The translations under genes and the position numbers were made by a program. Shown here piece by piece: positions 42,265-64,000 of a DNA stretch of 64,000 nt (position 1 is the stretch's first letter; every line of letters starts with the position of its first letter). The DNA lies in assembly GCA_024305745.1 (NCBI GenBank), contig JAHRBS010000012.1, forward strand, positions 2,836,001-2,900,000. Direction: 5' to 3'. Origin of the DNA: Polyporus tsugae (lineage: Eukaryota > Basidiomycota > Agaricomycetes > Polyporales > Polyporaceae). Under the pieces are notes generated by a model. It saw only the letters and a program-made list of their open reading frames with translations. It was not told where the DNA came from and did not search any database.

Positions 42265-42933
42265 ATGCGGCGAGGCGGCTCGGGTGGCTGGTGCCATGAG
42301 GAGGAAGATGCACAAGGCGGGGTCTGTGGCTCGGTTCGTATAGATGTATCAGTATCGCTGTATGAAGGAGATCATTTTCCGACGACGCACAGCTGGGTGT
42401 GCATTGTTCACAACTTCCGCGCCGGGGCTACTAGCACTTAAGTACTGGAGGCGGGCTGGAGGCTGTACGCGACGGTCATCCAGCCACGAGATCAACAAGT
42501 ACAAATAATGCCACATACCTATTGTTTTTTTTGCCGGCGTGGCTTCTTCTTAGGATCGGACCTTTCTCGCAGTCGATATCTATTCATTGCAGCCAAATCG
42601 TCCGCGATTTGTGGTTTAGGGGTCCTGCAGTGAGTAGTAGGCACAGTCGTAGGGATGGTAGGGTTATGGGAAGATGTTCAGTGGATGGACCCTAGGGTCG
42701 AGATAACCCCTAGTCTAGGGTTAAAACCTGGTAGGACGAGCGCTGGGTTGCCTTATAAGGCAGTATGTAAGTAGAAGACAAGACAAGACTGAGTGAATGA
42801 ACTCGATAAGCAACTTATCGCTCTGCGGACTGGGGCATGAGCGGCCTGCACCACTGCTAGATTAAGTACATGTGAAAGCTTGGATTGGTGATCCAGCCTT
42901 CCGAGAAGTCCACTCACTCCTATCTCTATAATA

Positions 42934-44337: not shown

Positions 44338-45562
44338 GTTTGGCATAGGTCGAGGGCTAATTTCCGCGCGCACGCACAGGCCCTGCATCTGCGCAGGATT
44401 ATACAGTGTGCAAAACACGTCAATGACAGCGCAGAGGCAGTGTCTGTGCGTTTGCGGACATACTGAACGAGGTTGAGGACAACACAAAAGGATGTTTAAT
44501 TTCGATGTGGTACGGCTGGTGTGGGGAGGCAAAACGCGCACAGGCACTTGACGTGCATGTGCGCTGCTGCTGAAACTGGAGGACACCTTTGTATGAACCC
44601 AGGAGGTGGGTGTATCCATCTACAGATTGGCGCGAATGCACAGGGGTGTGCCTTTGCGCCAGAATATGGTATAAGTATTGTATAGGATAAAGATGTATAT
44701 TGTATATGAAAGGACAGGATGTATCTTGATGTGGAATGAACACCTGAAGAGTGCATATACTGCACACTGAATCAAACATAGGTTACATGTTATACATGTA
44801 CGCTGAAATCTGTACAACATTATTATAAACTACGTGACACAGATGATATGTATATGATAGTAGATATCCTCATGTTGACACAAATAAAAGGTGATGGTTG
44901 AGTGCTCTACCGATGGATAACAACGCTGAATAAAAAAGGACTGTATGACAGATTGCGACATACAATAAGCAGGAGTGGAACATATGACCAGAAGTTAATT
45001 GCAAACCGCTCGAAGTACCACAACGATGTAGTTGGTGAAAACTGCAAGTGGCAGTCGGAAAGAATGGTGAATACATAGAGGAGTATGCTCTATGTTTTGT
45101 AGAGGAAAGAACTATGTATGGAAGAGATCTCAGTGCTGACTTTTGTGGCATAGAAAGGTGTAGGATGCGGTGGTTCTCTGTCCTGAACAAGTTGTAAGTT
45201 GTAGGCTGTGGGCAGTGTGGGAGAGAGATTGAAGTGGAGGAAGGAGGTAAGGTAAGCAGAAGGGTTATGGGAACATCTCAGCCCTCTATCCCTAGGGATG
45301 AAATAACCCCTAGGGTAGGGTTTAGCCCTCCTAAGCGACCGGCTAAACCGCACTAAGCGCCTGCCTAGCCAGCGCTAAGCGCTTGGCTCCTAAGCGAGGG
45401 ACCATTAGCGCCAGCACCGTACAAAGAGAACAGTAAGTCGGATGTGATAAGGGAGTAAGGAGTCCGGTATTAGCAACTGAGAATCGGAGTGGTAAGTGGA
45501 CTTACATCCACATTGATGGAGTGAGCAAGGAGGATATAAAGAGGATAAGGGTGGGAAGATAG
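44338..45562. other. AT-richer spacer without a gene
   Basis: No coding signal. Composition is AT-richer than the flanks. It contains a block at 45265-45325 (GGGTTATGGGAA ... CCCTAGGG ... AACCCCTAG) that resembles 42658-42725 in the same orientation, and a CTAAGCG-rich stretch at 45330-45400. Confidence 0.4.
45330..45400. repeat. Interspersed CTAAGCG motif cluster
   Basis: CTAAGCG or a close variant recurs five times in 70 bases, with GGCT spacers. It is non-coding. Confidence 0.55.
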
Positions 45563-46230
45563 AGGAGAGCAGGGGGCAGAGCAGGGGTATCCGTCCTGGA
45601 CGGACAGCTGAGTATAGGACCACGCACATGTGGTGGGGCAAGGGCAGTCCCGCAGGTGTCCGTCCAGGACGGACAGGTCCGGTGTTAGACCTGGCTCATA
45701 TTGCAATGATGTGCCAACCTGCATGGTCATTACATAGTACTTATCCCTTTTGCTTCGTTCAATGCCACTATTGAGAATAAAGGAGAGCAGGGGGCAGAGC
45801 AGGGGTATCCGTCCTGGACGGACAGCCGAGTATAGGACCACGCACATGTAGTAGGGCAAGGGCAGTCCCGCAGGTGTCCGTCCAGGACGGACAGGTCCGG
45901 TGTTAGACCTAGCTCATATTGCAATGATGTGCCAACCTGCATGGTCATTACATAGTACTTATCCCTTTTGCTTCGTTCAATGCCACTATTGAGAATAAAG
46001 GAGAGCAGGGGGCAGAGCAGGGGTATCCGTCCTGGACGGACAGCTGAGTATAGGACCACGCACATGTGGTAGGGCAAGGGCAGTCCCGCAGGTGTCCGTC
46101 CAGGACGGACAGGTCCGGTGTTAGACCTGGCTCATATTGCAATGATGTGCCAACTGGCCTGCATGGTCATTACAAAGCACCTATCTCTTTTGCTTCGTTC
46201 AATGCCCCTATTATGCGGTGCATTGATGCA
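45563..46230. repeat. 218-bp tandem array carrying paired palindromes
   Basis: Three units (from 45564, 45782 and 46000; the last degraded after about 46150). Each holds two cores of the island palindrome CCGTCCNGGACGG: 45591 and 45660, 45809 and 45878, 46027 and 46096. The pair is always 69 bases apart and the unit period is exactly 218. Between pairs lies a block resembling the left arm of the foldback element at 49564-50112. Units are nearly identical, so the array is young. Confidence 0.9.
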
Positions 46231-46580
46231 TTAACATTAACTGATCTTTAAGTCTTTATTCGGCTGAATTATTGGTAGACTAGTGCCCATATCTTGTTGT
46301 TCTGCCCATCGGTAGTGCGTGTGCGGTCAGGCGTCGGGCCATAGGTCTCCATCCTGCACGGACACACTGTGCATGGGGTGCGACCAAGTGCAGTACTTAG
46401 CTGATATACTGCTACTAATGAATACTGTCCCGTATGCTAATAACACGGCGGGGTAAAGACATTGATGCATTGATCAATTGACCACTTAATAGTGGCATTG
46501 AACGAAGCAATACTGATATAATAACCTTGCAAGCCAGTTTGCAGCGGGAGGCAGGACAAGCATCTGAGCTGTCCGTCCAC
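46096..46580. mobile_element. Degenerate foldback element (relative of 49564-50112)
   Basis: A palindrome core at 46096 forms the left end, a mutated core (CATCCTGCACGGACAC near 46350) lies at the centre, and a half core GTCCGTCCAC at 46571 forms the right end. The right arm (46440-46575) is clearly homologous to 49986-50112. The arms no longer pair well, so it is an older copy. It flanks gene L on its 3' side. Confidence 0.55.
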
Positions 46581-46711
46581 TTCATTGACTAAGTCCATCT
46601 CCTAGACCAAGACAGGCCATGACATTGAGTTACAATATGCAATGCGACAACATATTAAGCAATACACGCAGTACAGACACCGTCCTACTTTCTCACCCAA
46701 GACATCGGCGC

Positions 46712-47340
46712 TCACGGTGCCGCTGCTGTGTCCCAGTAGACACCGTGCCTGACAACAGTGGTCACTGCAGAGAAAACAGTTAGTAACTCTATACCGCGAA
46801 CAGATCGGGTTGATACTCACACTCGTTGCGACTCGTGATGTCTTCTTTGAGGTGCGCCAAAAGACGCGCCTTCGCCTCCGTGACCTCCGCATCCGCCATG
46901 TGCAGCTTGCCCTCCGTCCTCTGGTTCATCTCCTCGGCGTACTCAGCGGCGGCTTCCTCGGCCTTTCCGCGTGCTTGCAAGTACGCGTGCATCGCTGCGC
47001 AGAAGTTGTCTTGCGTCGCCTTCATCCGCCTGACCCGCGTAATGATGGAGTATTCCTCACCAAACTCCCGCAGATCCCGAAGGCCAGGCCGCTCGTGATA
47101 CGGCAGGCTGGCGAGGTGGCTGTACAGCGTGCTGAACTCGCTATCCACATTCACCAACGGAGGCAGCGCGCGCACTAGCATTAGGAACGCCGACATCGTG
47201 TACGACGCGTTCAAACTAGCAGGCTGCAGCGTCGCGCCTGTGATGGGGGTCGATTGTGTAAGTGTGGATGGGTGGCGGGAGACAGTCCGGGTGACGTAGT
47301 TGATGACCTCCTGGTGCACAAAGTCGTCGATGAAGCTCAT
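46712..47340 (-). CDS. Island gene L, divergent paralogue of R, coiled coil
   Basis: Exon 1 is 47340-46821, the intron has GTGAGT/CTGCAG ends with a CTAAC branch site, and exon 2 is 46764-46712. The coding sum is 573 nt, 190 aa. The longer open frame from 47454 is rejected: its first 38 codons lie in promoter DNA that includes a TATA box. The product starts MSFIDDFVHQEVINYV, has a variable N-terminal third, then SYTMSAFLMLVRALPPLVNV and DSEFSTLYSHLASLPYHERP, which R shares, then an Ala/Glu/Lys-rich coiled coil (about 110-165) and a C-terminus TTVVRHGVYWDTAAAP. No signal peptide, homeodomain or known motif. It shares a palindromic bidirectional promoter with R. Confidence 0.7.
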
Positions 47341-47390
47341 AGCGGTGAGAATGACAGTGATGCGATGGCTGCTCTCCCAACTTGCGGTCC

Positions 47391-47397
47391 CTTTATA
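47391..47397 (-). promoter_or_regulatory. TATA box of gene L
   Basis: TATAAAG on the minus strand, ending 57 bases before the ATG at 47340. The same box at the same distance precedes gene R in the other promoter arm. Confidence 0.6.
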
Positions 47398-48035
47398 TTC
47401 ATCGCCAGGCGGGCTCATCCATGCGGCCAGCACCTCCACGGCCTTCCTTTTCACTTCACCATCTATCCCATAAGTCCTCCCTTCTTGCCGGGGTCTCCAT
47501 CAACACTCCTTAGTACATTCAAGTCCATCAGGTTCATTCTATACATAGACAGTCATGTTCCTCGGTACCGCGGAACATCCCTTCCCTTCCTTCCTTCTAC
47601 AACAGAACACGTAATTCCTATATCAGGCCACTTCGTGTCCGCTTCAGAAGCCAATGTGGGCGTGAACCTACTATATTGTTAATTGACAGAATATGACGTC
47701 CTCCCACACTGTGCTATATGTTTTCTACTCTTTGTGTTTCACCTACACATATGTTCTCACTCAATTGTAAATGGGATTGAACTCCTGTGAGAAGTGTGTG
47801 ACGAGACGGTTGTCGAAGTCCTCACCAGCCGAGTGAGTGTCTCTAGCAGCAGTCCTCCAAACCTATTCTCGGTTCTACCATCAGTGAAGTTTGTACTCGC
47901 AACTGGTGCACATTTATTGTGTTCTACCCGTCTTAGCCAACAATTAAAGAGGTGAATGCGACGCTACTTTACGGCATTAAAGGAAGCTGATTGTAAGACT
48001 AAGGGCAGTATGGTCAGGCGTCATGACAGCGGTGT

Positions 48036-48048
48036 CCGTCCGGGACGG
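48036..48048. repeat. Island palindrome core in the L/R promoter spacer
   Basis: CCGTCCGGGACGG within GTGTCC...GGACAC, at the centre of the 243-base spacer between the two promoter arms. The spacer around it resembles the central part of the foldback element at 49564-50112. Confidence 0.85.
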
Positions 48049-48650
48049 ACACTCTGCACGGGTTGGGACCAAGTGCGGTACTCGCTGAGCCGCCAAAACA
48101 GCAAACGTCTCCAACTGACGTACTGCCACTAATAGATACTGTCCCTTGCGAGTGCAAACTTCACTGATGGTAGAACCGAGAATAGGTTTGGAGGACTGCT
48201 GCTAGAGACACTCACTCGGCTGGTGAGGACTTCGACAACCGTCTCGTCACACACTTCTCACAGGAGTTCAATCCCATTTACAATTGAGTGAGAACATATG
48301 TGTAGGTGAAACACAAAGAGTAGAAAACATATAGCACAGTGTGGGAGGACGTCATATTCTGTCAATTAACAATATAGTAGGTTCACGCCCACATTGGCTT
48401 CTGAAGCGGACACGAAGTGGCCTGATATAGGAATTACGTGTTCTGTTGTAGAAGGAAGGAAGGGAAGGGATGTTCCGCGGTACCGAGGAACATGACTGTC
48501 TATGTATAGAATGAACCTGATGGACTTGAATGTACTAAGGAGTGTTGATGGAGACCCCGGCAAGAAGGGAGGACTTATGGGACGGACGGTGAAGTGAAAA
48601 GGAAGGCCGTGGAGGTGCTGGCCGCATGGATGAGCCCGCCTGGCGATGAA

Positions 48651-48657
48651 TATAAAG
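48651..48657 (+). promoter_or_regulatory. TATA box of gene R
   Basis: TATAAAG followed 57 bases from its start by the ATG at 48708. A half core of the island palindrome (GGGACGGACGG) lies about 70 bases upstream and is mutated in the L arm. Confidence 0.6.
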
Positions 48658-48707
48658 GGACCGCAAGTTGGGAGAGCAGCCATCGCATCACTGTCATTCT
48701 CACCGCT

Positions 48708-49328
48708 ATGAACTCTGTCGACCAGTTTGTGTCCTATGAGCTCAAGGCCTTCGTCGGCCGCATTGTCACCAGTAACCTATCCCCACCATCGACCCCCATC
48801 CCAGGCCCGAGGCCGCAGCCTGTTAGGTTCAGCGCGTCGTATGCGATGTCAGCATTCCTAATGCTAGTGCGCGCGCTGCCTCCGTTGGTGAATGTGGATA
48901 GCGAGTTCAGCACGCTGTACAGCCACCTCGCCAGCCTGCCGTATCACGAGCGGCCTAGCAGTCGGGCGCTGAGGGAGTTTGGTGAAGAATACTCCATCAT
49001 TACGCGGGTGAGGCAGATGAACGCGGCGCAAGACAACTTCAGCAACGCGATGCACTCGTACTTGCAAGCACGCAGGAAGGCCGAGAAAGCCGCAGCTCAG
49101 TATGCCCAGGAGGTGACCAACGGGGCAGAGTTCGCGCTGCAAATGGCGGATGCGGAGGTCGTGGACGCGAGGGTGCAACTGTTGGTGTACCTCAAACAAG
49201 ACGTTACCAGTCTCCGCGAGCGTGCGTATTACCCGATCTATTCGCGGTGTAGAGTTGCTAACTGTTTCTCTGCAGTGACCACCGTTGTCACGCACGGTGT
49301 GTTCTGGGGCTCGACAGCCGCGCCGTGA
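48708..49328 (+). CDS. Island gene R, divergent paralogue of L, coiled coil
   Basis: Exon 1 is 48708-49221, the intron is 49222-49275 (GTGCGT donor, GCTAAC branch, CTGCAG acceptor) and exon 2 is 49276-49328. The coding sum is 567 nt, 188 aa. The product begins MNSVDQFVSYELKAFVGRIV, then a Pro-rich variable stretch, then SYAMSAFLMLVRALPPLVNV and DSEFSTLYSHLASLPYHERP identical to L except one residue, a variable coiled-coil region (NAMHSYLQARRKAEKAAAQY), and TTVVTHGVFWGSTAAP at the end. Variable and identical blocks alternate, as expected from gene conversion or diversifying selection. The function is unknown. Confidence 0.7.
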   Translation: MNSVDQFVSYELKAFVGRIVTSNLSPPSTPIPGPRPQPVRFSASYAMSAFLMLVRALPPLVNVDSEFSTLYSHLASLPYHERPSSRALREFGEEYSIITRVRQMNAAQDNFSNAMHSYLQARRKAEKAAAQYAQEVTNGAEFALQMADAEVVDARVQLLVYLKQDVTSLRERAYYPIYSRCRVANCFSAVTTVVTHGVFWGSTAAP

Positions 49329-49563
49329 GCGTTGATGTCGTCCTCCGGCGGCCGTCCTCGATACCCTCCAGTGGGCGAGAAAGCAGGCGAAGAGGACGGA
49401 GAAGGCGGGAGGAGGGTGCACGCGTGATGGTTGGGTCGGCGACAGCGATGTTTGGCGGGGGTGTCTGTATTTTGCGCATGGAGTTGGTTGATACGTTGTC
49501 ATATCGCATATTGTTTTGTAACATAATGTCATGGCCTGTCTTGGAGATGACTAGTGCATGAAG

Positions 49564-50114
49564 TGGACGGACAGGTCGGATGTAAGGCCCTATGCAGACT
49601 GGCCTGCAAGGTTATCATTCGACGCTACTATTAAGTGGTGGATTAATGAATGCATCAATGCCTTTACCTGGCCGAGTTATTAGCACACCAGTGCGCATTT
49701 ATTGGGTTCTACTGGTGTTAGCTAATGATTAATAAAAGGTGAATGCGACACTACTCTAAGGCATTAACGGAAGCCAGTGGTAAGTTCACGGTCAGTGGTG
49801 GGAACACGGTCGGGCGCCATGCTAGAGGTGTCCGTCCTGGACGGACACCACTAGCGTGGCGCCTGACTGTGCTCCCACCACTGATCGTGAACTAATGACT
49901 GGCGTCCGTTAATGCCATAGCATCGCACTCACCTCTTTATTAATCATTAACTAACACCAGTAGAACCCAATAAATGCGCACTGGTGTGCTAATAACTCGG
50001 CCAGGTAAAGGCATTGATGCATTCATTAATCCACCACTTAATAGTAGCGTCGAATGATAACTCTACAGGCCAGTTTGCATAGGGCCTTACATCCGACCTG
50101 TCCGTCCTGGACGG
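49564..50114. mobile_element. ~550-bp foldback element centred on the island palindrome
   Basis: Imperfect inverted arms of about 270 bases run from the half core GTGGACGGAC at 49564 to the full core at 50102-50114, with another full core (49832-49844) exactly at the symmetry centre (49838). Arms read GGATGTAAGGCCCTATGC... and ...GCATAGGGCCTTACATCC. There is no coding content. Related partial copies lie at 46096-46580, 47903-48145, 51680-51845 and inside the 218-bp array. This is a MITE-like, non-autonomous family. Confidence 0.8.
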
Positions 50115-50725
50115 ACACCTGCTGCACTGGCCCTGTCCACCACATATGCGTGCGGGGCTTAACCTCAGCAGTTGGAGTGAATATTAACAACAAACTAAGG
50201 GTGTACTTCGCTGTCAAGGCTTCAATTTCGTTATCACATTGCGTCATGAGCAACTTATAGGGCAAGAGTCTGCGGGCACTGCGCGAACGACGGTGGTGGC
50301 CGACACATTCCTCAAGTACGGATACCATGCACGAAGGTGCTGACATTGAACCGTAGTCAATGTTCTTCCTCAATGGAGAGGCCTGCCCTGTTGGACTTAG
50401 TCCCAGAACCGCAGTATAGCTTCGACGGATATCTCGAACCTCTACTCCGTCATGCGCACTCCGCGGCAGTGATATAATGACGTAAGGTCGAAGTCCGAGA
50501 ACTGGCTGACATCGACCTTTCCTCGGCTGTGGTTTGGCTGGAACCTTACCGTAAACGGTAGCTTCGCATACCTTCGCTTGTGGGCTAACTATTTTCCCCC
50601 TAGGCCAGCTTCCGGACTTCGGCCTTACTTTGTCGTCCTAGCCCTTGCCGTAAGGAAGGCACGACTCTCACACTTTCGGGATATTTAATCCAGTCCCGAC
50701 CTCACTGACCCCGCATTGAGTCACG

Positions 50726-51294
50726 ATGCGCCCCCTCCCCGTAGCGTCACGCACCAGCACCAGTACCGACGAGACTGTCCGCCCCCCCGTGCGTCCGCGG
50801 GACGTGGATGCTCAGAGCCTTCACCCGCTCTCTGCGGAGGATGCTGACGAACATGGAGAGGATGGGAGTCTCACTTCTACGGAGTCTGGCACCAATGACT
50901 CCGGGCAGTGCTCCATTGTTCTCACCAACAACCTCGGGGTCGATTGCTTGGTATCTGGGCGGGAGCTTGACGACGAAATTGAACTCGCCAACTACAATGC
51001 AACACAGCATCGTGGGGTTAGAATACGCTCACTTGAAAAGGTCAGATCCACATGTTTGTCAGGATGCCAACCCCTCTGATGAATATGGTTTGCTAGCTCC
51101 CTCCGTGCCGCCCTCCTCCTCTAGGCCCATTACCACCCCCTCCTATTCAGCCTCTGCCTCCTGTGCGCTTCAGCGAGGCTCCACCTCCTGCTCAGCCTAT
51201 GGGCATTGTCGACTCTTCTCCCTGGCGTCTTGCAAGGGCTTACAGTCCCGTTCGCCCCACTACTCGCCTGAGGGACGTAAGCACCCCACCGTAA
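50726..51294 (+). CDS. Small proline-rich protein of unknown function
   Basis: Exon 1 50726-51040 and exon 2 51097-51294 (315 and 198 nt, GTCAGA donor, GCTAG acceptor) give 170 aa. The N-terminal half is acidic (AEDADEHGEDGSLTSTESGT, then SGRELDDEIELANYNA), the C-terminal half Pro-rich (PPLGPLPPPPIQPLPPVRFS; SPWRLARAYSPVRPTTRLRD). Coding-like residues continue in another frame to about 51427 (FKREVNKKPWYDGCC), so a further exon or a frameshift is possible. A TATTTAA sequence lies about 45 bases upstream of the ATG. It could be the gag-like start of a degraded retroelement, but no LTR pair or pol domain is seen. Confidence 0.4.
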
Positions 51295-51822
51295 GCCCAA
51301 GTTGTCTGTTTCTAGAGGCGTTTGCTTACCGGAATCTAGCTTTGACAGTGGTGGACCGTCGAGGGCTATTTCTTTCAAGCGCGAAGTGAATAAGAAACCT
51401 TGGTATGATGGATGCTGTTTCCAGTAGGCAAAAACTGCTACAGCTTATCTTGGCTTGTGAGGATTAGTAGGACGGCCTGTGGGTTACAAGTTGGGAGTTA
51501 CATTGATTTGTGTTAGGCGAATATTGTGTATAATGTGATGATCTGTCTGGAGCTTAACGCCCTGAGGTGGCTGTAGCTAATGAGCTGCTTATGTGAACAC
51601 CACGTAGACGTAGAACTTGATGGCGAAGTAGTGAGTTAGTCATCAACTTTTTACTAGATAAAGACGGAGCAGATACACTCTACACCAGTGTACCAATAAT
51701 AACACACAGGGTGTCAAGACTTGATGTTAATGCGTCTATTGATGCAATGTTTAATAGCAGCATTGAATGAGAACAAAGCAATACATAGTAATGCCAGTCG
51801 GTATAGCATTGTGGTGTGAGCA
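51295..51822. other. Spacer with half a foldback element
   Basis: No gene. From about 51680 the sequence (ACCAGTGTACCAATAATAAC, then ATTGATGCAATG and TTTAATAGCAGCATTGAAT) matches one arm of the foldback family and ends at the palindrome core at 51833. Confidence 0.45.
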
Positions 51823-52085
51823 CCCGTCCTGTCCGTCCTGGACGGACACCTGCCGCACTGCATGTGCGTCCCACCATCCTCGGCCGTCCGTCCTGGACGG
51901 ACACCTGCTACACTGCATGTGCAGGACGGATACCACTGGGGTGTGAGCACCCGTCCTGTCCGTCCTGGACGGACACCTGCCGCACTGCGCGTGCGTCCCC
52001 CGATCCCCAGCCGTCCGTCCTGGACGGACACCTGCCACACTGCATGTGCAGGACGGATACCACTGCTCTGTCACCTGCTGCCATT
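51823..52085. repeat. 127-bp tandem duplication with four palindromes
   Basis: Cores at 51833, 51888, 51960 and 52015: two units of 127 bases, each with two cores 55 bases apart. Each core is followed by ACCTGCyrCACTGC. Units differ at only a few positions. Confidence 0.9.
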
Positions 52086-52273
52086 TACATCTGTACAATT
52101 GCGAGTGTGATTCGTCATAATGAAATTCGGCAAGTAATAGTTATTGGATAACGAGAAGTTGCGCTAATAACAAGTGGCACGCTGAACAACGACCCATAGA
52201 ACTTGAACACGCACGAACGGCTGCTTTCACACGTGGCTGGACATGGGCCAGACAGGCATGGGTGCGTGGCCGT

Positions 52274-52343
52274 CCGTCCTGGACGGACAGGTGTCGTGCG
52301 AGGGGTGTGTGGGTGCCCGTGCAGCCGTGTCCGTCCAGGACGG
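52274..52343. repeat. Two island palindromes downstream of the SNF2-like gene
   Basis: Cores at 52274-52286 (CCGTCCTGGACGG) and 52331-52343 (CCGTCCAGGACGG), 57 bases apart, close to the 55-base and 69-base pair spacings elsewhere. Both are about 400 bases beyond the stop codon of the SNF2-like gene. Confidence 0.85.
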
Positions 52344-52740
52344 GCTCTTCTGGGTGCACAGCGCCAGCAGCACACACCTGTGATATTCCGCGTGAGCACA
52401 GCCTTGAGGATTGATAGACGCGACAGTTCGTCGGGGAGAGGAATGTAGATGAGCTGGTCGGGAGGGGATCTGTCAGGCCTGTTCGTCAAAAGGTTTGGAA
52501 TCCGTCATGGACAAGGCAGGTAAGCCCTACATCCATTTATTGTACCGCGCAATTCAACCCGTGCTGTTCTGTTGAAGGGGGGGTCACAGATTGAGATTAA
52601 GAGGTATGGATAAGGTAAACATATGGGAAGATACAGTCCTATCAACAGTCCAACAAACAATCTCAGCCGTGCGTCGTATCCAGAATGCTATAGTACAGTT
52701 GTCCGAGTCAAACGAGAGCGATATGCGAAGAATAACAAGT

Positions 52741-55700
52741 CTACTTGCGGCCGAGCTGACTCGCCTTACCAGGCCGGCCGCTCCCCGCGACCCGCTTCAG
52801 AAAAATGTCCTTGGCCTCCATTGGCCGATCGCTGTCGCTATCGTCGCGCCTAGATGCGCGGCCGCCAGAAGCCCCACCACCACGACCGCCGGCGGGAGAA
52901 GAGCCAGAGGCACCCGCGCCGCTCCCAGAGGCACCCGCGCCGCTCCCAGAGGCACCCGCGCCGCTCCCAGAGGCACCCGCGCCGCTCCCAGAGGCACCCG
53001 CGCCCTCTCCTGCAACCCTCTTCGCCGGTGGGCTGCGACCTTCGGGCGCCGGGTCCACGTCGAAGTCGAAATGAAAGTTCTGGGGGAGGGTGACTGCCTG
53101 GGCCAGTTGCTCTCTCTCGGCTTCCTCGCGTTTGCGCTTTAGGGCCTGCCTCTCCTTCTTCTCCTTCTTCTTCTGCCGCTTGGCCTTCTGCTCGTCGTCC
53201 ACCTCTTCATCGCGATGCCCTGACACGTTGGCCGTGCGCTTCAAGGGGGGAGCGTTGGGGGTGGCGGGGGCGTCGGGACGGGTCTGACGCGAGGGCCCGG
53301 GCTCCGCGCGTGTGTCCTCGGTGCGCGCCGACGATGAGGCCGCTGGTGCCCTCGGTGTAGGCCTAACCTTGGGCTTGGACACCTTGGGCTGGGGGGCTAG
53401 CTCGGGCACGGGCTCGGGCACGGGCTCGGGCGCGGGCTCGGGCGCGGGGTGCTTCTTCTTGTCCTTCTTGCTGTTCTTCCCCGCCGGCGCAGACTGGGAC
53501 TGGCGCGATTCGAGCACCACTTCTGGCAAGAGCTTCCTGCGGTCGCGCTTGGAGGGCTGGGTTGGGGCAGGCTCAGGCTGCTGGTCGTTGTCATCCTCGG
53601 GAGCGACCCTTGCGGTGGCGGCGACCTTGCTCTTGCCCTTGGCTCTCGGTTGCTCGGCCTCCTCGCCCTCGTCAGCGACGACGGTGGGCGACTTGGGCTT
53701 GGGCTTGGGCTTGGGCTTGGGCTTGGGCTTGGGCTTGGGCGTGGATGCACGGGTGGAGGCGGGGGGGGCTGCCTTGGCCTTACCCTTAGCCTTGCCTTTC
53801 GGCTGCTCGTCCTCGCTCTCCTCGTCGTCGCTCTCCTTGCTCTCCTCGTCTTCGTCAGCGACGACGGCGGGCGACTTGGGCTTGGGCTTGGGCTTGGGCT
53901 TGGGCTTGGACGCGGGGGGGGCTGCCTTGGCCGCAGGCTTGGCCTTGCCTTTCGGCTGCTCGTCCTCGCCCTCCTCGTCCTCGCTCTCCTTGTCCTCGCT
54001 CTCCGAGCTCTCCTTGTCCTCGTCAGCGACGGCGGGCGACTTGGCCTTGGCCTTGGACGTGGACGCCCGGGTGGACGCCTGGGTGGATGCACGGGTGGAT
54101 GCCCGGGTGGCTGCCTTGGCCGCAGGCTTGGCCTTGGTCTTCGTCGCGGGCTCCGGCTCGGGCTCGTCATCCTCGTCACTGTCATCCCGGAGCCCGGCCG
54201 GAAGGAGATGACGGAAGATGGATTCTACAGTACATTAGTAAACAGCTGTTAGAGTCATAAAGATAATAATTAAAAACTTACTTGTCTGCTTCGACGACTT
54301 GGTGAAGGCGGTGAGGAGCGCGTTCTTCGAGAACGAGAGAACGCTCAGGAACATGTCCGTGGCGTGCTCGAGGCAAGGCTGGTAAACCAACACCTGCTTC
54401 TTCTGGGGGTGGCGCCAAATGCGACCGATCAGTTGAAGCAAGTCCTGGTGCGACCACATTTGATCCTGTTTGGATGTTAGGTAAGAAATAACAACAGTAA
54501 GACATAGAACCTTACCAAGGCGACGAGGATGTTGGCCTGGGGGAGGTTGAGGCCCATCGTGCCAACGTTCGACAACAGGCAAACACGGGGTCCGTCGCGG
54601 TCGGAGTTGCGGAACTTGGCTATGTCCTTTGAGCGCACGGACATGCGCTTGGAGCCGTTGACCTCGATGTACTTGATGCCGTAGAAGCTCAAGACCTGCG
54701 AAATCAAAGTGTATAAGTAATGATAACGACAGAAGAAAAGTGTTAATTGCCTTCGTGATGAGGTGGTTGTTGGAAGGGAAGGCGACGTAGACGATGATGC
54801 GGTCGGGATAGTCGGTTTCGTCGTCGCGCTCCTGCATTTTCCATTCGGGATCCGCCTCCAAGTCGTTGCTGTCTTGCGAGGGGCGGCGAAGGAGCGGGGC
54901 GTTGTCGTCGGCGAGGTGATGGAGGAGGATGTCGATGAGGTTCTGGAGCTTCGTAGAGGTGGTGGCCTCCCACTCCTCCATATCTTTCGGCGCCCAGAGC
55001 GGGTCATCAAGGAGCTTGTAGTGGAGGTGGCTGCGGCGGAAACGACCGTAGAAAGCCTGGATGAACAGTGTGTGAGCAACAGTGGAGATGAACAAAGTGT
55101 GTCCGTCCCGGACGGACACCGGGGGATGGGCCCCTGCGGTTCAATAACAAATCGACGTGAAATCCACCACGCCGCATTTCACGAGGTCTCAGTGGAAATC
55201 TATCCGTCCAGGACGGACAAGGAGAGCGAGGGGCCTGCCCGATGTCTTCTCGTCTCCCCACGCGCCAATGGTATCCGTCCCGGACGGACAGGTGAGAGGG
55301 AGGGGCCCGCCTGCCAGTGGTCTCGCGGAGATCCACGACACTCTTGGCGGCATCCGGCCCATAGACAGGAGTCAGCGCAGAAGTGTCCGTCCCGGACGGA
55401 CACCTGCAGCCACCGTGCTTGCATCACGATTGCCACCAGTGCGAAACCGTGAACAGGCATCGGCGCGCTATGTGTCCGTCCTGGACGGACACCTCTGACA
55501 CTCCAGCCTGCCGCATGTTGGGACGCGGCACTGTGCCCCTGTGTGTCCGTCCAGGACGGACACTTCGAGACCCGGTCGTGTCTCGAAGCGTCCGCCCTGT
55601 GTGTCTTGAGTATCAACGAGAACGAGAAGACTTACGTGTCCTTCAGCCTGCGCAACCATCGCGGCAGTGCGCGCGGTGTCGTGCTCAGCGACGATCGCGG

Positions 55701-58225
55701 CTGCTGTCGCCTCCAACACCTCCGACTCCTCGTCCAACGGCGTGAGCATTATTTGTTGGGCGACGTAAGGGCTCAGCCCCGAGATGGGACGCCCCTCCCA
55801 GTCGACGGCGTCCAGGGTGCGGCGGATGGTGTGGCCGTTGAACATCTTGCGAAGCGCGACGGTGTACGAGGTCATTTGCTTGACCTGCTCCTTCTTGGCC
55901 GGGAGGTCGATCTCGCCGTTGAGGATCCCCTGTACGAAGTCGCCGTCCTCGCAAGCGTTGCGGAACTCGATGTTGGACTTGCGCGCGGCGGCCATGAGCT
56001 TCTTCTTCATGTCGACCAAGAGTGTTTCCTCCTCGCAGGCGGGGATCCCGATACACCGGCCGATGTACACCAAGTCCTGTTAAAGGGCAGTCAGTATGGT
56101 CCCACAACCAGCATAAGAAACGTACTTACCAAGGGCGAGTTCGTGATGGGCGTCGCCGTCGCCGCGATGGTGCAGTGGGAGAGGAGGGAGAGCTCGTTCA
56201 TTGTCGTCCAGTGGTGGCTGGGGTTGCGCATCTTGGCCGCCTCGTCGATGGTGGTGATGCCGAACTGGTAATCGTACAGCATCGACCTCATGGGCAGCGC
56301 GGAGTCACGTTCGGGCCGCTGGGGAGCGATCTTCTTCGTGTTCGTGAACCGCTGCGAACAATCGGACTCGGCGGCCTACAGACGTTAGCATGCATATTCA
56401 GAAGTTAATAAACAAAGCTGGGCTGCTTACCGTGTACGCGACGAGCAGAACCTTGTGGCTCAGCGTCTGCTTGTCGTCCTTGAGGTGGAACACTTCGTCC
56501 CAGATCGCCATCCTCCCGGACTGGGCCCACTGGTGCTTGTACGGGTAGATGTCGACAGAGCCGAACTTGACGTACCGCTTGAACTCGAACATCCATTGGT
56601 CGAATAGCGGGACCGGGACGATGATGAGGTGGGGACGGTCGGGCAAGTTCCCGTCCGGCGTGTCGCACTTCAGGCCCTCTGTAATACACACTGTTAGTAA
56701 ATGCAAGTAACGAGCAGAAAAGGCAAAGACTTACTGAATTGCGGGGGGAACCTTTTGTTCCTCTGGTAGTACGCGCGAAGCATCGGGTACATGACTATGG
56801 CGCCGACGATCTGGAGCGTCTTGCCGACGCCGACTTGGTCCATGAGGAGGAGGGGTTTGCCCTTGATGATGAGCTCGCACATCTTCGTGATCCCGACGAG
56901 CTGATGCCACCGGGGACCGAAAGCGAGCGCCTTGTCGGTGTTGACGAACTTAGCCCACTGCGTCGGGTCCCAGGGGTTGACCTCGCCACGCGGATCCTCG
57001 ACCTCGTTGAACCCAGGGATCTGCTCGTTGTTCAGCCCAAGGCCGGCCCAAAGCTCCTGCGGGTCCTTGTCCTGGAGGTCCTCGACGCCCGTCAGCCAGT
57101 CCGAGAAGTCGAACTCGTCGGCAGCTTCGGCGACCGCGTCGAGGTAGTGTTCGGGGAGGTCGTCCATCGCTTGCTCGAGCTCGCACAGGACGATGTGCAC
57201 CGTTGGCGTGTCCGCGAGGGCCTTGAGGGCCTTCAGGAGGCCGGCGGGAATGCCTGTAAATCAAACGCGTCAGTAACACAAATGTAAGAACAGTAACAAA
57301 AGGTGTTTACGGTCGTGCTTCGCCTCCTTGACTTTCGCCGCCACCTCGTACATCTGCTCGAGCCTGGTCTTCCACGCAGCGACGAGCTCCACCATGGCCG
57401 CGTCGCCGAACAATTCCGACTTGGTGACCGTCCGCTTGATACGCTGGATGATCCGAGCGATCTCGGAGGGGGTGGGCACTGCGTCGGGGGACTCGAGTGC
57501 TACAAACAAAGGTCAGCCTGCAAGCTGCGAAATGGGACTTGGGGCTTACCTGCAACGTCCCGCGCCAACTTATCCTCGTTCTTGACCGCGCCCGCACGCG
57601 CCCGCTTCCACGCCCGCCCCCTCGAGTCCCACGCCGAAACGATGAGACCCCCAACGACCGGCATGAGGGGGATGTGGACGACCTGGATCGACCCCACCCC
57701 CGTGACGCAGTCGGGGCCGAACATCGCAAGGGCGAGGTTGGGGGCGACTACGTCACGGATACCGAGGTCCGTCGCATTCGGCCACTGTGCACATAAGTCA
57801 GTAAACCGTATAATAAACAACTACACTAAATAAACTACTTGGTCGCGCTTGAGGGCCTTGGGGACGTCGAACGTCTTGAAGCTGCAGGTATCGAGAGTCG
57901 AAGCGACCAACTCCGAGATCTCCCATTCCGCCCACTTGTCAGCCGCCCACTTCTTCACGATCACGCGCCCCTCCTGGTGCGCGTCGGTCCGCCCGCGAAC
58001 AAACTGCAACCGTTTGGCGGACCCCACTTCCTCCAACCAGCGCCGATAAAAAACCTTTGCTAATTTGTATTCCTTTTTGTTCATGCCGGCCGTCTTGTAA
58101 GTCGCCTCTGGGCCGAACGGCATCGCGAGGAGGCCGGTACGGTCTTGCCAAACGTTCCACGTGAACGACTCCGGCGTGTCCGCGCAGATGGTGAGGAGGT
58201 GGCTGACGTTGTCGAGGGAGGGCAT
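52741..58225 (-). CDS. SNF2-like helicase/ATPase with long charged tail
   Basis: A gene of about 11 exons, roughly 1,480 aa. The ATPase half contains RWHQLVGITKMCELIIKGK, Walker A LLMDQVGVGKTLQIVGAIV (56815-56875), HLIIVPVPLFDQWMFEF (motif Ia), a variant DEAD box TTIDEAAKMRNPSHHW (56200-56245) and ATATPITNSPL (motif III). The second lobe has CLLSNVGTMGLNLPQANILV and motif VI LLQLIGRIWRHPQKKQVLVY with the Arg finger. The last exon (52741-54222) is a disordered tail of acidic blocks, STRAST repeats, (KP)n runs and a GAGASGS repeat. I prefer the ATG at 58225: a TATA box at 58311-58317 sits too close to the alternative ATG at 58297. The intron at 55057-55634 is ten times longer than the others and carries six palindromes. 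It may remodel or translocate on DNA; a transposon-associated role is inference. Confidence 0.8.
52909..53012. repeat. 21-bp coding tandem repeat
   Basis: Five copies of a 21-base unit (AGAGGCACCCGCGCCGCTCCC on the + strand, last base variable) encode GAGASGS repeats in the SNF2-like tail. The units are identical, so slippage is recent. Confidence 0.85.
53690..53748. repeat. Hexanucleotide (GGGCTT)n encoding (KP)n
   Basis: About nine hexamers; shorter runs recur near 53874-53910. They encode alternating Lys-Pro in the disordered tail. Confidence 0.85.
55103..55559. repeat. Six island palindromes inside one intron
   Basis: Cores at 55103, 55204, 55275, 55387, 55476 and 55547 lie in the 578-base intron (55057-55634) of the SNF2-like gene. 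Central bases are C, A, C, C, T and A. Spacing is irregular, 71-112 bases. Sequences between them are not obviously repeated. Confidence 0.9.
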
Positions 58226-58310
58226 GCTGTCGAGTTGGTGGGTGCTGGTGAGCTTGAAGGTGGTGGGGAGAAAGGGGGTTGGAGGGAGCGGGCGCATCGA
58301 ACTCTGTCTG

Positions 58311-58317
58311 ATATATA
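58311..58317 (-). promoter_or_regulatory. TATA box of the SNF2-like gene
   Basis: TATATAT on the minus strand, 86 bases before the preferred ATG at 58225 and 14 bases before the alternative at 58297. The position decides for the downstream start. Confidence 0.5.
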
Positions 58318-58680
58318 CCGCCCAACATGAGGCGGCGGCGACCACAATGAGCCCTGGCCCGACCCTGAACACGCGGTGTCCTCAACGATCCCTCGAGGAA
58401 GTTGCATGGCCTTTTCGGGAAAAGAACCTCGTGGAGGTTGCAATTGACTTCCTAAATAGAAACCTCGACGTGATGGCCGCGGACACAACGACCACATGCT
58501 CCGTGGCCTGCCTGTCACGTCCTCGGACTCCGAGTCTCGCGGAGATCCACGATACTCTGGGCGGTATGTTTCTTTGTACCCAACGCGGGTGCGGGGCTGC
58601 ACTTGTTGATGGGCTTGTTATTTACTTCTAGGAGGTCAAGCAAAAGCACCTCTCTGGCAATCCATTCCCGGGCTGAGACA

Positions 58681-58693
58681 GCGCGTCCTGGAC
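58681..58693. repeat. Island palindrome, variant copy
   Basis: GCGTCCTGGACGG followed by ACAC: one substitution in the left arm of the core. It lies just outside the large palindrome. Confidence 0.7.
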
Positions 58694-58794
58694 GGACACG
58701 CACAGTGGAAACTGGCATTCGCTGGTGCATGTCACCGTACCTCAGCTGACTGATGGCTTCACTCACCGCGCCGCACCGCGGGGCGAGATGAGTC

Positions 58795-59475
58795 TGTCCT
58801 GGACGGACACAGACAGAGGCGGGGATGTTCTGCCATAGTTCAACTGGCAAGACCGGCAAATGTGTCCGTCCTGGACGGACACATAGGGAGGGAGCCCTGC
58901 ACTGTACTTTGCTCCAATGATCACATTTCAGGGAGCAGAACTGTCCGTCCTGGACGGACACATGGGGTGTGGGAGCTGTTCGGGCGCTCTCAGGCCTCAC
59001 CGACTCTTTATCCGTCCTGGACGGACAAACTGGGCTTATGGCCTGCACTATATTTGACATATCATTTGTTAATCCTCTGTCAAGTGCTGGGCCCCAGAGG
59101 CTGCTGATCCTCTGTCAATGGCTCGGCCAAGGAGGTTGCTCCGTGGCTTAGCCATTGACAGGGGATCAACAAATGCCCAGCGACTGAGGATTAACAAATG
59201 CAAATGATATGTCAAATATAGTGCAGGCCATAAGCCCAGTTTGTCCGTCCAGGACGGATAAAGAGTCGGTGAGGCCTGAGAGCGCCCGAACAGCTCCCAC
59301 ACCCCATGTGTCCGTCCAGGACGGACAGTTCTGCTCCCTGAAATGTGATCATTGGAGCAAAGTACAGTGCAGGGCTCCCTCCCTATGTGTCCGTCCAGGA
59401 CGGACACATTTGCCGGTCTTGCCAGTTGAACTATGGCAGAACGTCCCCGCCTCTGTCTGTGTCCGTCCAGGACGG
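58795..59475. repeat. ~680-bp near-perfect palindrome
   Basis: 58795-59068 and 59202-59475 are inverted copies with very few differences (for example one C/T near 58829). A less perfect inner part continues to a centre near 59135. Cores lie at mirror positions: 58866/59391, 58945/59312 and 59012/59245, plus a variant at 58794 matched by the core at 59463 at the outer ends. Open frames reading VSVQDGQ or CVRPGRT are only translations of the repeat. It lies between the SNF2-like gene promoter and the orphan gene 3' end. Confidence 0.9.
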
Positions 59476-59576
59476 ACGCGTCTCGACCGAGCCACGCGTG
59501 AAACGAACACTCGCAGCTGAGAATCAAACTACGCATATATTTGTATGAAACACGTTCGGTGTACTTTCACGAAACA

Positions 59577-62500
59577 CTAAACATCACTGTACGCGTCGAA
59601 ATCTACGAAACGGTCAGAGTTCACGCGGCGGCGCTTCGGGCCCCGTTCCTCGTCAGACGCGTCAAGTCCGTCGAAAAGGGCACACTCAACGAGCTCCGGG
59701 CTAGAAGGGAACATGAGTACGGGCGAGGGCGGCGGGCTCCAGTCGTCGTGACCGCGAGTGAGTCCGATGGAAAAGACATCCACCGGGGGCTCGCTCAGAG
59801 CCCGGCCCACTTCGACCCCACTGCTAGACTCCTCTTCTTCTTCGCGACGATAAGCGTTACCGCGGCCCGCCCCTCCGGCCTGACTGGCACTACTCCCCGC
59901 AACGCTCGGGGAACGTTCACGCTCGCGGGCATGCCCACCACCTGGGAGGCTGCGAATGCTGTCGAGGAGGGGACCGACGCTGTGGGCGAGATCGAGGCGA
60001 GGCTCTCCGTGGGTCATGTTGATCGTTTGGAGGCGTTGGGCTAGCTCGACCCACGCGGCGTCTTCCTCGTCTTCCGGCTCGGCCTCCCGAGCGCGCGGGT
60101 TAGGCGCGCCGAGCAGAAAGACGGCGCGAGGATCGGGGCACTTGGCGCTGTTGACGACGATATGAACGGCTGGTTCGTCGTGCCCGGGAGGAAGGGCCCT
60201 CCAGCCTGCAGGGAGCGGATGCCAGGCCTTGCTCTTCCACATGCGATCCGAATAAGGATGCGGGAGCCAGGACAGCCCTCGGAATAGAATCCAAAGCTCA
60301 TCGCGGATAACCGTGGCGTCGTGGTCTGAGAGGCGGCCTATCTCGCCAATGTAGCTCGAGAAATAGCGGGCGTTGCGGAAGTTCTGAAGGCGATCGGAGA
60401 GAACAGTCCCTTTGGGCGGGAAGAACTTGTCGAAGACGAGTTCTCTCCATTGCTGCTCATTGCAAAGGCGCAGGTACGCGGCCTCGAAAGGAAGCTCGAC
60501 AGCTCGGAAGAAGTCGTGGGTCACAGCCTCGCGCGCAGCTTGGCTCAGCTTGATGTACGAAGGCTTGTGCCGATTCTTCTGGTTCGGGGAGCATTGGATG
60601 ATGTCGGAAGGGAACTGGGCCCAGAGAAGAGAGAAGGCGCGATCCAAGGAAACTTCTTCGTCCTCCGGGTCGTCGAGGTTCTCGATGTCAGGGCCCGTCA
60701 TTTGCATGGTGGGGATGCGCGCGACGCCGTGTTGAGTGAGGGTGAAATTGTGAAGGGTAAGCTGACCTCTGACAGCCTGGATGGGGACGGTGGGCCGCCT
60801 GGTGTTGGTCCGGTCCTTGTGTGATCAACTGTAGATGGAGAGGCCAAAAGAACGCCCGCCGAAGGCCTTCGCGATGTCGTGTAGGTTGGGCTTCTTGTAG
60901 AGGATAGCGAGTTCCTCCCGTTCTAACTGACGGACAGCGGCGAGACGGAAGACGCCATGAGTTTCGTCGCGCACGAGACCGGCGATGAAGTAGAGGCCAC
61001 GGTCGAGGGTGCAAGGGACGAGGTTGACGTTCTCGAACTCGGCATCCGCATAGTCTGCCTCGTAGGGGTGGACGTGGGGATGGGTCCAAAACGCGCACTG
61101 CCTGCCAAGCTCCTCCTCGATCCTCTTCCCGGAAGGGCGGTAGATGACAGCGTTGAACATGTAGACGCAGACAGCACCCAACATGAGGCTGGGTGTCCAA
61201 GAACGAGCATCGGGAGGGGAGCTTGCCAACTCTTTGAAGAGCCGGTAGAGCGCCGATGCGCGGAAGAACTTGAAGTACCTTTATAAATGAACTATTAGAA
61301 AGCTTACAGGTAACCATAGACAGAGGACTTACCACCAGATGGCGGAGTCCACGGCGAGAATCGACTCCGTGACGAGGTCGTCGGGGATGTCTGCGAGAGC
61401 CTGCTTGGCATACAAGAGGCCGACGCGGGCCTCCATACGAGCTGCACCGTTCTGGAGGACACCGGAACCCCCTGCGCAGTCGGCGAAGGTCTCTGCGACG
61501 GTGTCGACGTCGGAAAGGAACTTCTCGAAAGGGTTGGGCAAGAGGTCCTGCGCGGTGCGACGCCGATAGGTCCCTGCGTGCTGCTGATAGGTCGCTGACT
61601 TGTCGGTGGTGTAGACGTTGATATAGGAGACATGGTCAGCGCGCCCTTTCGTCCCCGTCTCGAGGCGGAAGCCGGACAATGCTGTGAGGTGTCCGCTGAG
61701 GTCCTCCTTGAAAGCTTTGCTGCGCTTCAAAGCGATGGCCTGGTCCTCTGAGATAGAGGGAAGCATGTGTCGAATGAGCCGGGTGTGACTTTCGGTCAGC
61801 CATTGCATAACCCGGCCCTCAGCGTGAACTTCCAGGGCAACGTCGACAAACCAACGTGACTCCAACTCCTCGTCGGGAATAAGCTGCTGGTCGATGGGGT
61901 CCAAGACCGCTGCAAGGGCCTCACTGCGAGCCCACCAATCCTGGGGGTTGTGAGCGCTGGAAGCCTTCACGCCTTTGGCCTCGATCTCGAAGAAGGCATC
62001 CGCGAAGCTCTCGTCGAGCTGGGCCAGGCGATCGAGGAGCTCGCGCGCGAAGGCCTCAAGAAAGACCTGGGTGATGTCCTTGGTAAGGGCGCCGAGCTGG
62101 CCAGTGCGGCTCCGAACGAGACGAGTGACGTGACTGAAATTCACCGGCCACTGGACTGCGAGTTCGGGGGCGACAGCCCCGAGGGCGGGACGGATGGCAT
62201 CATCGTAGATGGAGGCCAAGACCTCGTTACTAAGCGTGGGAGGGACGTGCGGGTCGTATCGCTTTGGGAAGAAGAGACGACCCTGGTGGCGGGTCCTGAA
62301 CTTGAAGCAAAGGCAGTTCGGAATTTTGTGAAGCGGGACCTGAAGGGTGGCGTTCTGAATAACAGAGTGGGTGAGAGTGGTGACGATTGATGTAGGTTAT
62401 TTACTTACATTTCTGGTGATAGGCCACTTGATGTGGACGGAAGTGGTAAGGGTCTCGGAGAAAGGGGGAAACAAGTGCCAGGTGATAGACTTGCTGAATG

Positions 62501-62771
62501 GAAGGAGACGAGTGAGACCGATAACAGAGTCAAAGTCGCCAAGAATGGTGTAACATTCGGGAAACTCGCATTCGTAACGGGGATTAATGAAAAGACGGCG
62601 TTGGTTGGTGTTCGCATTGGGGCGGGTTATGGGTGCGCGACCCGCGAGGACTAGGTTGACGAAACGGTCGATGTTCTCGTCGTTACAGTACTGTTCAGCG
62701 AGTTGTACGAACTCCGTAAGGCCGATGGTTCGAGGAGGGAGAGGCTCATCAGGGAACAGCGGTGGCGCCAT
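59577..62771 (-). CDS. Large orphan island protein, interrupted by in-frame TGA
   Basis: It starts at 62771 (MAPPLFPDEPLPPRTIGLTE), 33 bases after a TATA box. Two short introns (near 62412-62360 and 61331-61280) connect exons reading IKWPITRN/NATLQVPLHKIPNC, LFFPKRYDPHVPPTLSNEVL, VMQWLTESHTRLIRHMLPSI and SAIWW/YFKFFRASALYRLF. After ...FGLSIYS comes TGA (60825-60827), but the same frame stays open for 415 more residues to 59577 (RRPTVPIQAVRGQLTLHNFT; HIVVNSAKCPDPRAVFLLG; then an acidic, Ser-rich tail with KRRR). The total is about 1,030 codons. I see no known domain. It resembles uncharacterised multicopy proteins of polypores (recollection, not checked). It is either a nonsense mutant, read through, or two genes. 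Confidence 0.65.
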
Positions 62772-62803
62772 GGTTGCAGATCGACTTGCACGGAGCGATG
62801 TGA

Positions 62804-62810
62804 TTTTATA
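62804..62810 (-). promoter_or_regulatory. TATA box of the orphan gene
   Basis: TATAAAA on the minus strand, 33 bases before the ATG at 62771. An island palindrome core (62840-62852) lies 30 bases further upstream, a typical place for an activator site. Confidence 0.55.
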
Positions 62811-62839
62811 CCGAGGCCTGCACTGGGATACAGACCTGT

Positions 62840-62852
62840 CCGTCCTGGACGG
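62840..62852. repeat. Island palindrome core in orphan gene promoter
   Basis: CCGTCCTGGACGG within TGTCCGTCCTGGACGGACA, 69 bases upstream of the start codon. Confidence 0.85.
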
Positions 62853-63078
62853 ACACGGAGGACAGGACACCTGTCGACTTTGCGGGTAGGTGCCCGCTGG
62901 GCCGCTGGGCCCCGACACGCGGTGACGAGAGGCTCGTCGTTGCGACTGGAGTGATACAATAGGTGGAATACAGTGTCCGTTGCTAAGGCGGCCTCGAGGA
63001 CTCAACATGTGTCGAATTCAGGACCAATGTGCAACATGAGGACGATGGGCCGTGAGCGGGAAACAGTTGAACCTCCCT

Positions 63079-63462
63079 GGGCGGTGGCGGATGTGTCCGT
63101 CCAGGACGGACAGCTGCGGTGGGACGCACGCACTTTGCCTCGTGTCTGCCGCGTTGAACGTAAGCTTAGAGGTATCTATCACACGAGGACAATACTCAAC
63201 GGTGGATAAATGTTCAACAGTCGGGGACAGTGCCCGACGTTACCGTCCAGGACGTACACCACGCTGTACTGGGCGGTGGCGGATGTGTCCGTCCTGGACG
63301 GACAGCTGCGGTGGGACGCACGCACTTTGCCTCGTGTCTGCCGCGTTGAACATAAGCTTAGAGGTATCTATCACACGAGGACAATACTCAACGGTGGATA
63401 AATGTTCAACAGTCGGGGACAGTGCCCGATGTTACCGTCCAGGACGTACACCACGCTGTACA
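63079..63462. repeat. 192-bp tandem duplication with palindromes
   Basis: Units 63079-63270 and 63271-63462 are almost identical. Each holds a full core (63097, 63289) near its start and a variant core CCGTCCAGGACGT (63243, 63435) near its end. Confidence 0.9.
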
Positions 63463-64000
63463 GATATGCCTCATGGCCAGACCCTCAGTTACACATGAGA
63501 GTCCGAGGAGCCTAGAAACTTGACGACAGCGGGAGCTTATGACACTCCTCTTCGCCTAAAAACACGTTGAACAAGGGCATTATTATTACTCATCTAGTGG
63601 GGCAGACAAACACGGTAGCGTCCTCGCTACTGCCATCTCCCCTTGTCCTGTCCAATGCCATGATACTTGCCGAATTCCCTTGGTGCCGCCAGCACTCGAG
63701 GGTGCACTCGTGGACGAGAATGGACGGGATACCACCTAGCTTTTGGGGCAGATGTGAAAATTCGATATTTGCCAACGTGTCGAGACCAACATCAACAACG
63801 CAATTGCACCACCTCAGTCACCTTCCAGCGTTGCAGGCAAGAACCGGATCCCCAGGGACCTCGCAACTTCGAAGACGCTGAGCGTCTCATCGGTCGCAAG
63901 TTCCGAAAGCCAAGGCAATACCGGGTGATTTTACGGGTTGGGTAGTGGTGGCTACTGGGCAACACAGCGAAGAGAGACCGATCAATTCATGTGGGGCGCA
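63463..64000. other. Right end of window, no gene supported
   Basis: Short open frames only. The palindrome does not occur after 63447. The region may belong to ordinary flanking genome. Confidence 0.35.

Follow-up and report, generated by a model that had tools for sequence, protein, structure and literature searches.

In Arabidopsis, VANC proteins recognise family-specific motifs of VANDAL transposons (PMC5735166). Mobile elements of chromosome ends are described as Terminons, the giant telomeric retroelements of rotifers (PMC6431247), and as the MoTeRs of the blast fungus (PMC8381367). As far as the accessible parts of these papers go, VANDAL/VANC appears to be the closest described system, and Terminons and MoTeRs the closest described setting, for elements that we analyse here in Polyporus tsugae. 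The window, a stretch of 64,000 nucleotides (C16:2836001-2900000, on a contig of 2922500 bases), contains an island of short palindromes that is part of a mobile chromosome-end element, which we call family A. The genome also has two diverged relatives of this element, family B on contig C5 and family C on C2. Both have paralogues of its genes G1 and G2 and a related edge, and each is loaded with a palindrome of its own, which suggests that every family has a private DNA-recognition system. The survey covered one genome, 43.2 Mb in 18 contigs, and these three element families; the genome is fungal, since the nearest protein relatives come from Ganoderma adspersum, G. leucocontextum and Steccherinum ochraceum.

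The A palindrome CCGTCCNGGACGG occurs exactly 31 times in the window, with 0 copies expected and a largest count of 0 in 100 shuffles. An initial annotation of this DNA had listed 31 copies, and all 31 proved exact on recount; the first lies at 45591, in line with its statement that none occurs upstream of 45.5 kb. Its wording that the copies usually sit inside a full 19-mer is fair because 19 of the 31 extend that far, and the few variants it mentioned are four one-mismatch copies (58683, 58794, 63243 and 63435). The copies were also said to avoid exons, and indeed none of the 31 overlaps an exon called in our follow-up, with 8683 of 18288 bp taken as coding from a partly hand-set exon table. 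The centre base is free (T 16, A 11, C 3, G 1). The palindromes do lie in the 18-kb island described, but this island does not form a unit by itself: it is what the window shows (45262..64000) of a larger element, which begins at 45262 and runs on past the window end toward the end of C16. The edge of this element is also found on C3 (twice) and C5, with different flanks.

The annotation had proposed counting the palindrome genome-wide and had named a uniform scatter at chance frequency as evidence against its interpretation. We found 327 places, compared with 6 matches to the reversed pattern. This abundance follows from the element around the island, whose SNF2-like gene, G2, is present in nine near-identical family A-type copies; G1 is found at eight places. 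The copies are unevenly spread, so the uniform scatter did not occur. Among 50 of the 327 places listed, three are interior (on C1, C2 and C4); palindromes with a C or G centre number 41 genome-wide in a complete listing, two of them interior; and a longer sub-pattern gave 194 matches, with none interior among the 100 listed. In a viral collection one record (L031) had a single site, which we took as chance.

The G2 loci on C2 and C5 are without the A palindrome. Instead, the B element (C5:15244-31570), whose palindrome is ACCCGACCWGGTCGGGT, holds 31 copies of CCGACCNGGTCGG, with a central A or T in all 31. With such a centre this pattern occurs 42 times genome-wide, 31 times in the B element, three times on C17 and eight times scattered, and its reverse occurs once. 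The C element, with palindrome TGGNCYTCCNGGARGNCCA, has 35 places within three mismatches of GGCCYTCCNGGARGGCC; 12 are exact, most are imperfect, and one lies inside G1. The same pattern had 0 or 1 matches in each of four control stretches, and exact C sites are confined to C2 (12) and C13 (1). Each site set is thus concentrated in its own family. The three sets nevertheless share a scaffold: written outward, the half-sites read GGACGGACA in A, GGTCGGGTg in B and GGARGNCCA in C, with GG at +1/+2 and G at +5 common to all three, and a G at +6 that is fixed in A and B and present in about 63% of C half-sites.

Some fungal Zn2Cys6 factors bind everted CGG triplets seven apart. CCG-N7-CGG is present in A and B, and a host subtelomere-binding or transcription factor might use the sites. 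We consider this quite improbable, since the triplets are not kept in C and each family has its own motif within the same nucleus; such differences in one genome argue against a single host factor. In the elements themselves, scans of G1, G2 and G3 found no Zn2Cys6 domain.

The sites also occupy matching places. One intron of G2 is long in all three families (578 bases in A, at 55058..55635 on the minus strand, 646 in B and 607 in C), whereas the eight other A introns of G2, mapped by rule, span 50-57 bases. This intron lies at the same place in the paralogues and is loaded with each family's own palindromes: 6 exact in A, 5 exact and 1 imperfect in B, and 7 imperfect in C. The introns are otherwise unalignable, the best between-family match having an expectation value (E) of 0.003 and overlapping a motif. 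We considered a one-to-one pairing of the intron sites across families, which is unprovable because the spacing is even. Upstream of the G1 start codon the first site is 75 bases away in A and 160 in B, and further clusters lie upstream of G2. The simplest history would start from an ancestral set of arrays, in which each lineage then exchanged the sequence of all sites.

Sub-terminal repeats serve the replication or attachment machinery in many DNA transposons, and the arrays could be recognition sites of such machinery in these elements, with the promoter and intron copies secondary. Each family does have a cluster just inside its inner edge (335-840 bases from it in A, 165-363 in B and about 240-600 in C) and another on the outer side (A, C3:2064-2499; B, C5:15393-15757; C, C2:2856-3735), and the elements join many different sites. 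In the A copy on C3 this outer array consists of seven palindromes in tandem at ~70 bases, close to the telomere. On the other hand, most sites are internal, beside gene starts or in the intron, and the breakpoints that we read (C5:31570 and C3:29621) lie away from palindromes. Pfam scans of G1, G2 and G3 recognised no transposase domain, and no reverse transcriptase was noticed by eye in the gene-free C frames of at least 90 residues, on which no domain search was made. We therefore regard this explanation as unlikely.

If the palindromes acted as paired structures, their arms should covary. Arm agreement in A was 24/31 at ±8 compared to 24.4 expected under independence, and in B 9/31 at ±9 compared to 12.4. 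For the 34 C sites left after removing the one inside G1, the values were 18 at ±4 (18.2 expected), 13 at ±6 (15.4), 27 at ±7 (27.4) and 30 at ±9 (28.5). The half-sites thus vary independently. Since pairing would require covariation, the palindromes fit best as dimer half-sites rather than hairpins. Information drops past the core, with diverse flanks (36, 39 and 49 non-redundant half-site flanks). A role for hairpin or cruciform structure, as in a foldback element, a hairpin hot spot or an RNA stem, draws on the folding of the A and B cores as DNA hairpins, which is better than that of shuffles (z -4.0 and -3.1). However, the one asymmetric C site that we folded did no better than shuffles (z -1.3) and the palindrome has no Rfam match, and together with the arm data this makes such a role extremely improbable. 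Among the options offered by the initial annotation, a dimer-binding site would therefore be the best fit. Its hairpin hot spot is disfavoured by the arms, and its foldback terminus because the readable inner edges are not the palindrome but a different, telomere-like sequence. Its interpretation as a whole is partly supported, and its broader view of a functional or mobile unit holds in two ways: the island belongs to a mobile chromosome-end element, and the palindrome behaves like a conserved site. Palindrome-primed inverted duplication was also considered: palindromes lie near two inverted-repeat centres (48042 and 49838) and none at a third (about 59135), and mean flank symmetry (0.33 and 0.31 in A, 0.26 and 0.31 in B) exceeds the background of 0.25, partly owing to single sites.

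We consider it fairly probable that the arrays are binding sites of an element-encoded homodimeric factor whose specificity changed with its sites, in the manner of VANDAL/VANC. Such a factor would bind the palindrome at some 30 sites in non-coding stretches, namely by the inner edge, ahead of G1 and of G2, in the G2 intron, around G3 and in the outer array. Once bound, it might protect expression of the element genes against subtelomeric silencing, recruit the SNF2-like motor G2, or both, and G2 could then remodel chromatin at the sites. Each family would have changed its site sequence throughout along with the factor, so that families would not cross-react, and the end clusters may have a further role in attachment. 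That the sites are bound by protein, that the elements encode this protein and that its effect is activation or anti-silencing are all points that we infer. The 31, 31 and about 34 sites in three paralogous elements with three motifs support this explanation. G1 or G3 would be the first candidates for the binding protein, and G3 has a predicted C-terminal helix that is possibly of the coiled-coil dimer type.

Several observations weigh against a dimeric element factor. In the domain scans, neither G1 nor G3 matched a known DNA-binding domain. An AlphaFold2 model of G1, made from the Steccherinum homologue with 5 alignment rows, had a mean predicted local distance difference test score (pLDDT) of 36.6 and was not used, and the G3 model (3 rows, mean pLDDT 59.5) is fairly confident only for a long helix at residues 87-174, so the helix is a weak lead. 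Many C sites are imperfect. Nine short A loci differ at 6/855 motif bases compared to 43/26523 outside; the six differences fall at two positions, one of which is a centre base, and come from three copies that carry a 68-bp insertion. The window and C3 copies differ at 0/570 motif bases and 20/17455 others, which is uninformative; for the A copies beyond C3, short stretches were compared. Finally, the explanation comes from the sequence of a single genome.

The lack of visibly better conservation of the motif than of the rest among A copies would also suit a neutral spread, in which a functionless palindrome was copied through the growth of minisatellites and exchange between subtelomeres. Several clusters are indeed tandem or inverted duplicates, with units of 218, 192, 127 and about 70 bp. 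Most site flanks are unrelated, however, and three families have similar site numbers in matching non-coding places, so that we find a neutral origin very improbable. In support of the dimeric factor, motif changes within four internal A duplications numbered 0/152 besides one centre base, compared to 21/662 in flanking bases; this comparison left out the second 218-bp pair, which an indel shifts against its partner, and the I4 arms, which hold no motif bases.

The A inner edge is exact, at window 45262 (GGGTTATGGGAAC), and is telomere-like; the edge region (45262..45330, plus strand) starts with a telomere unit and reads GGGTTATGGGAACATCT, homologous to GGGTTATTGGATACTG in B and GGGTTATGGGAAGATGT in C. 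There are 14 exact edges in the genome, 13 A-type and one C-type, and telomere repeats stand at the starts of C3, C5 and C2. Edges lie 25.8 kb from the contig start on C3, 22.8 kb on C6 (a one-mismatch edge), 19.2 kb on C8 (the outer of two edges), 27.0 kb on C13 and 24.9 kb on C16. At the 17 junctions that we read, the 60-base flanks share at most 47% identity in any pair. The base preceding GGGTTA is A in 15/17 (background 0.21), and TA (9/17, background 0.036) or TTA (6/17, background 0.006) often precedes it; this bias makes the junction similar to the telomere unit TTAGGGTTA. Possible origins are microhomology, telomerase healing or a variably trimmed element end. The junction set leaves out five edge-like places: C2:17074 (a partial tandem), C16:38808 (a cut edge) and three interior places on C2, C5 and C17 without element sequence.

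Elements are also stacked. On C5 the B element is attached to a broken A element; on the right of C13 a C-type edge is followed 476 bases on by an A edge and 14 kb further by a second; and on C17 three B palindromes lie ahead of an A edge. In the window, a 259-base C-type inner-edge fragment (42661-42920, 99.2% identical to C2) lies 2.6 kb before the A element, a remnant of what was once the end of the chromosome. Another chromosome-end repeat, at C1:7465, C1:9771 and C2:19885, has its own 26-base even palindrome, CCTGGCCCTAAGTACTTAGGGCCAGG.

Within the window the A element begins with the sub-edge cluster (45591..46108), six palindromes in three 218-bp tandem units. G3 (46792..47340, minus strand) has no recognised domain and has relatives in Ganoderma leucocontextum; a second, diverged copy with 66% identity (48708..49328, plus strand) faces away from it, and between them a palindrome (48036..48048) lies near the centre of an inverted repeat (47262-47902 / 48146-48786). 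G3 was found in A and B, with none seen in C. Two more palindromes follow (49832..50114), the first near the centre of another inverted repeat (49565-49736 / 49936-50107), and then a cluster of six by exact-pattern count (51833..52343). Short serine-rich frames, picked by eye between G2 and the inner edge (window 50720-51076, C5:27035-27697 and C2:15583-16017), stand at comparable places in the three families and are possibly a fourth small gene. G2 (52741..58225, minus strand) is an SNF2-like ATPase gene whose joined exons match SNF2-rel_dom (E 7.5e-16) and Helicase_C (E 5.1e-12), and its protein has a long repeat-rich, low-complexity C-terminal tail (52900-53000 and 53390-54100). The G2 exon that we searched is 51% identical between A and C and 36% between A and B. 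Upstream of G2 is an array (58683..59475) of seven exact and two one-mismatch palindromes, most within a 288-bp inverted repeat. G1 (59577..62771, minus strand) is a multi-exon protein of unknown type; against C, its searched exon is 56% identical in A and 53% in B. Its reading frame in the window copy is interrupted by a TGA (60825-60827) at a point where B and C continue; the C3 copy differs in the 60-base stretch concerned. The array upstream of G1 (62840..63447) holds three exact and two one-mismatch palindromes. Weak matches were rejected for G1 (2OG-FeII_Oxy_2, 0.055; one solved structure in a profile search, E 0.48) for G3 (ABA_GPCR, 0.13; F0F1 subunit B, 0.12) and for the protein P0012 (Cytotoxic, 0.021). 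The copy at the left end of C3 is 99.4-99.7% identical to the window copy and partly reads N; runs of exactly 5000 N, which may be assembly gaps or withheld sequence, stand at round coordinates (C3:2501-7500 and C16:2900001-2905000).

To our knowledge, motif/reader co-evolution in selfish DNA is known from one plant transposon group. If our explanation is true, fungi would be a further case, one that uses palindromic dimer sites. A genome with three natural sets of sites and of proteins would then offer a ready experiment on the joint change of a specificity and about 30 dispersed sites, and a telomere-like edge that stays fixed next to many unrelated flanks would allow direct tests of how the elements attach to chromosome ends. 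More tentatively, these may be a new class of mobile element at the chromosome ends of mushroom fungi, without reverse transcriptase, that attaches by a TTA-GGGTTAT edge to broken or eroded ends, stacks, and in each family protects its expression by a private dimer-site code built on CC-nn-CC-N-GG-nn-GG and read by a re-targeted element factor and an SNF2-like motor; because sites and reader would change together, the families would be insulated from each other. Among the open-licence papers listed on subtelomere, SNF2, basidiomycete and Ganoderma topics we saw no description of such elements, and among the titles listed for the string TGTCCGTCC none concerned them.

Subtelomeric RecQ segments of fungi, in the parts of the sources available, likewise carry a gene of the helicase superfamily that is duplicated from one chromosome end to another, including in Ganoderma and Agaricus, with palindrome arrays or a fixed edge unmentioned there (PMC7473861, PMC10817607); G2, with its SNF2-rel_dom and Helicase_C domains, is SNF2-like rather than a RecQ-type helicase of the TLH segment kind. 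MoTeRs are likewise fungal telomere elements with truncated and internal relics, but they are reverse-transcriptase elements, and the accessible text does not mention palindrome arrays (PMC8381367, PMC7367193). Terminons, as far as the text at hand describes them, are also large, multi-gene, stacked at chromosome ends and attached by an edge with a telomere unit; in contrast, they carry different genes, including the reverse transcriptase that we did not notice by eye and without a domain search in the fungal elements, whose edge bears the G-rich unit reading outwards (PMC6431247). Attachment in a single orientation, as in telomeric retroelements, is seen at 14/14 exact edges, all with the element side toward the nearer contig end. 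From VANDALs the fungal elements differ in their SNF2-like gene and G1, in their chromosome-end location and in the putative nature of the binding, and according to the available part of the source the VANC21 motif is not palindromic and VANDALs encode a transposase (PMC5735166). Like VANDALs as described there, however, the three fungal families carry arrays of short family-specific motifs in non-coding parts, including introns and often in tandem, that differ between related families of one genome (PMC5735166).

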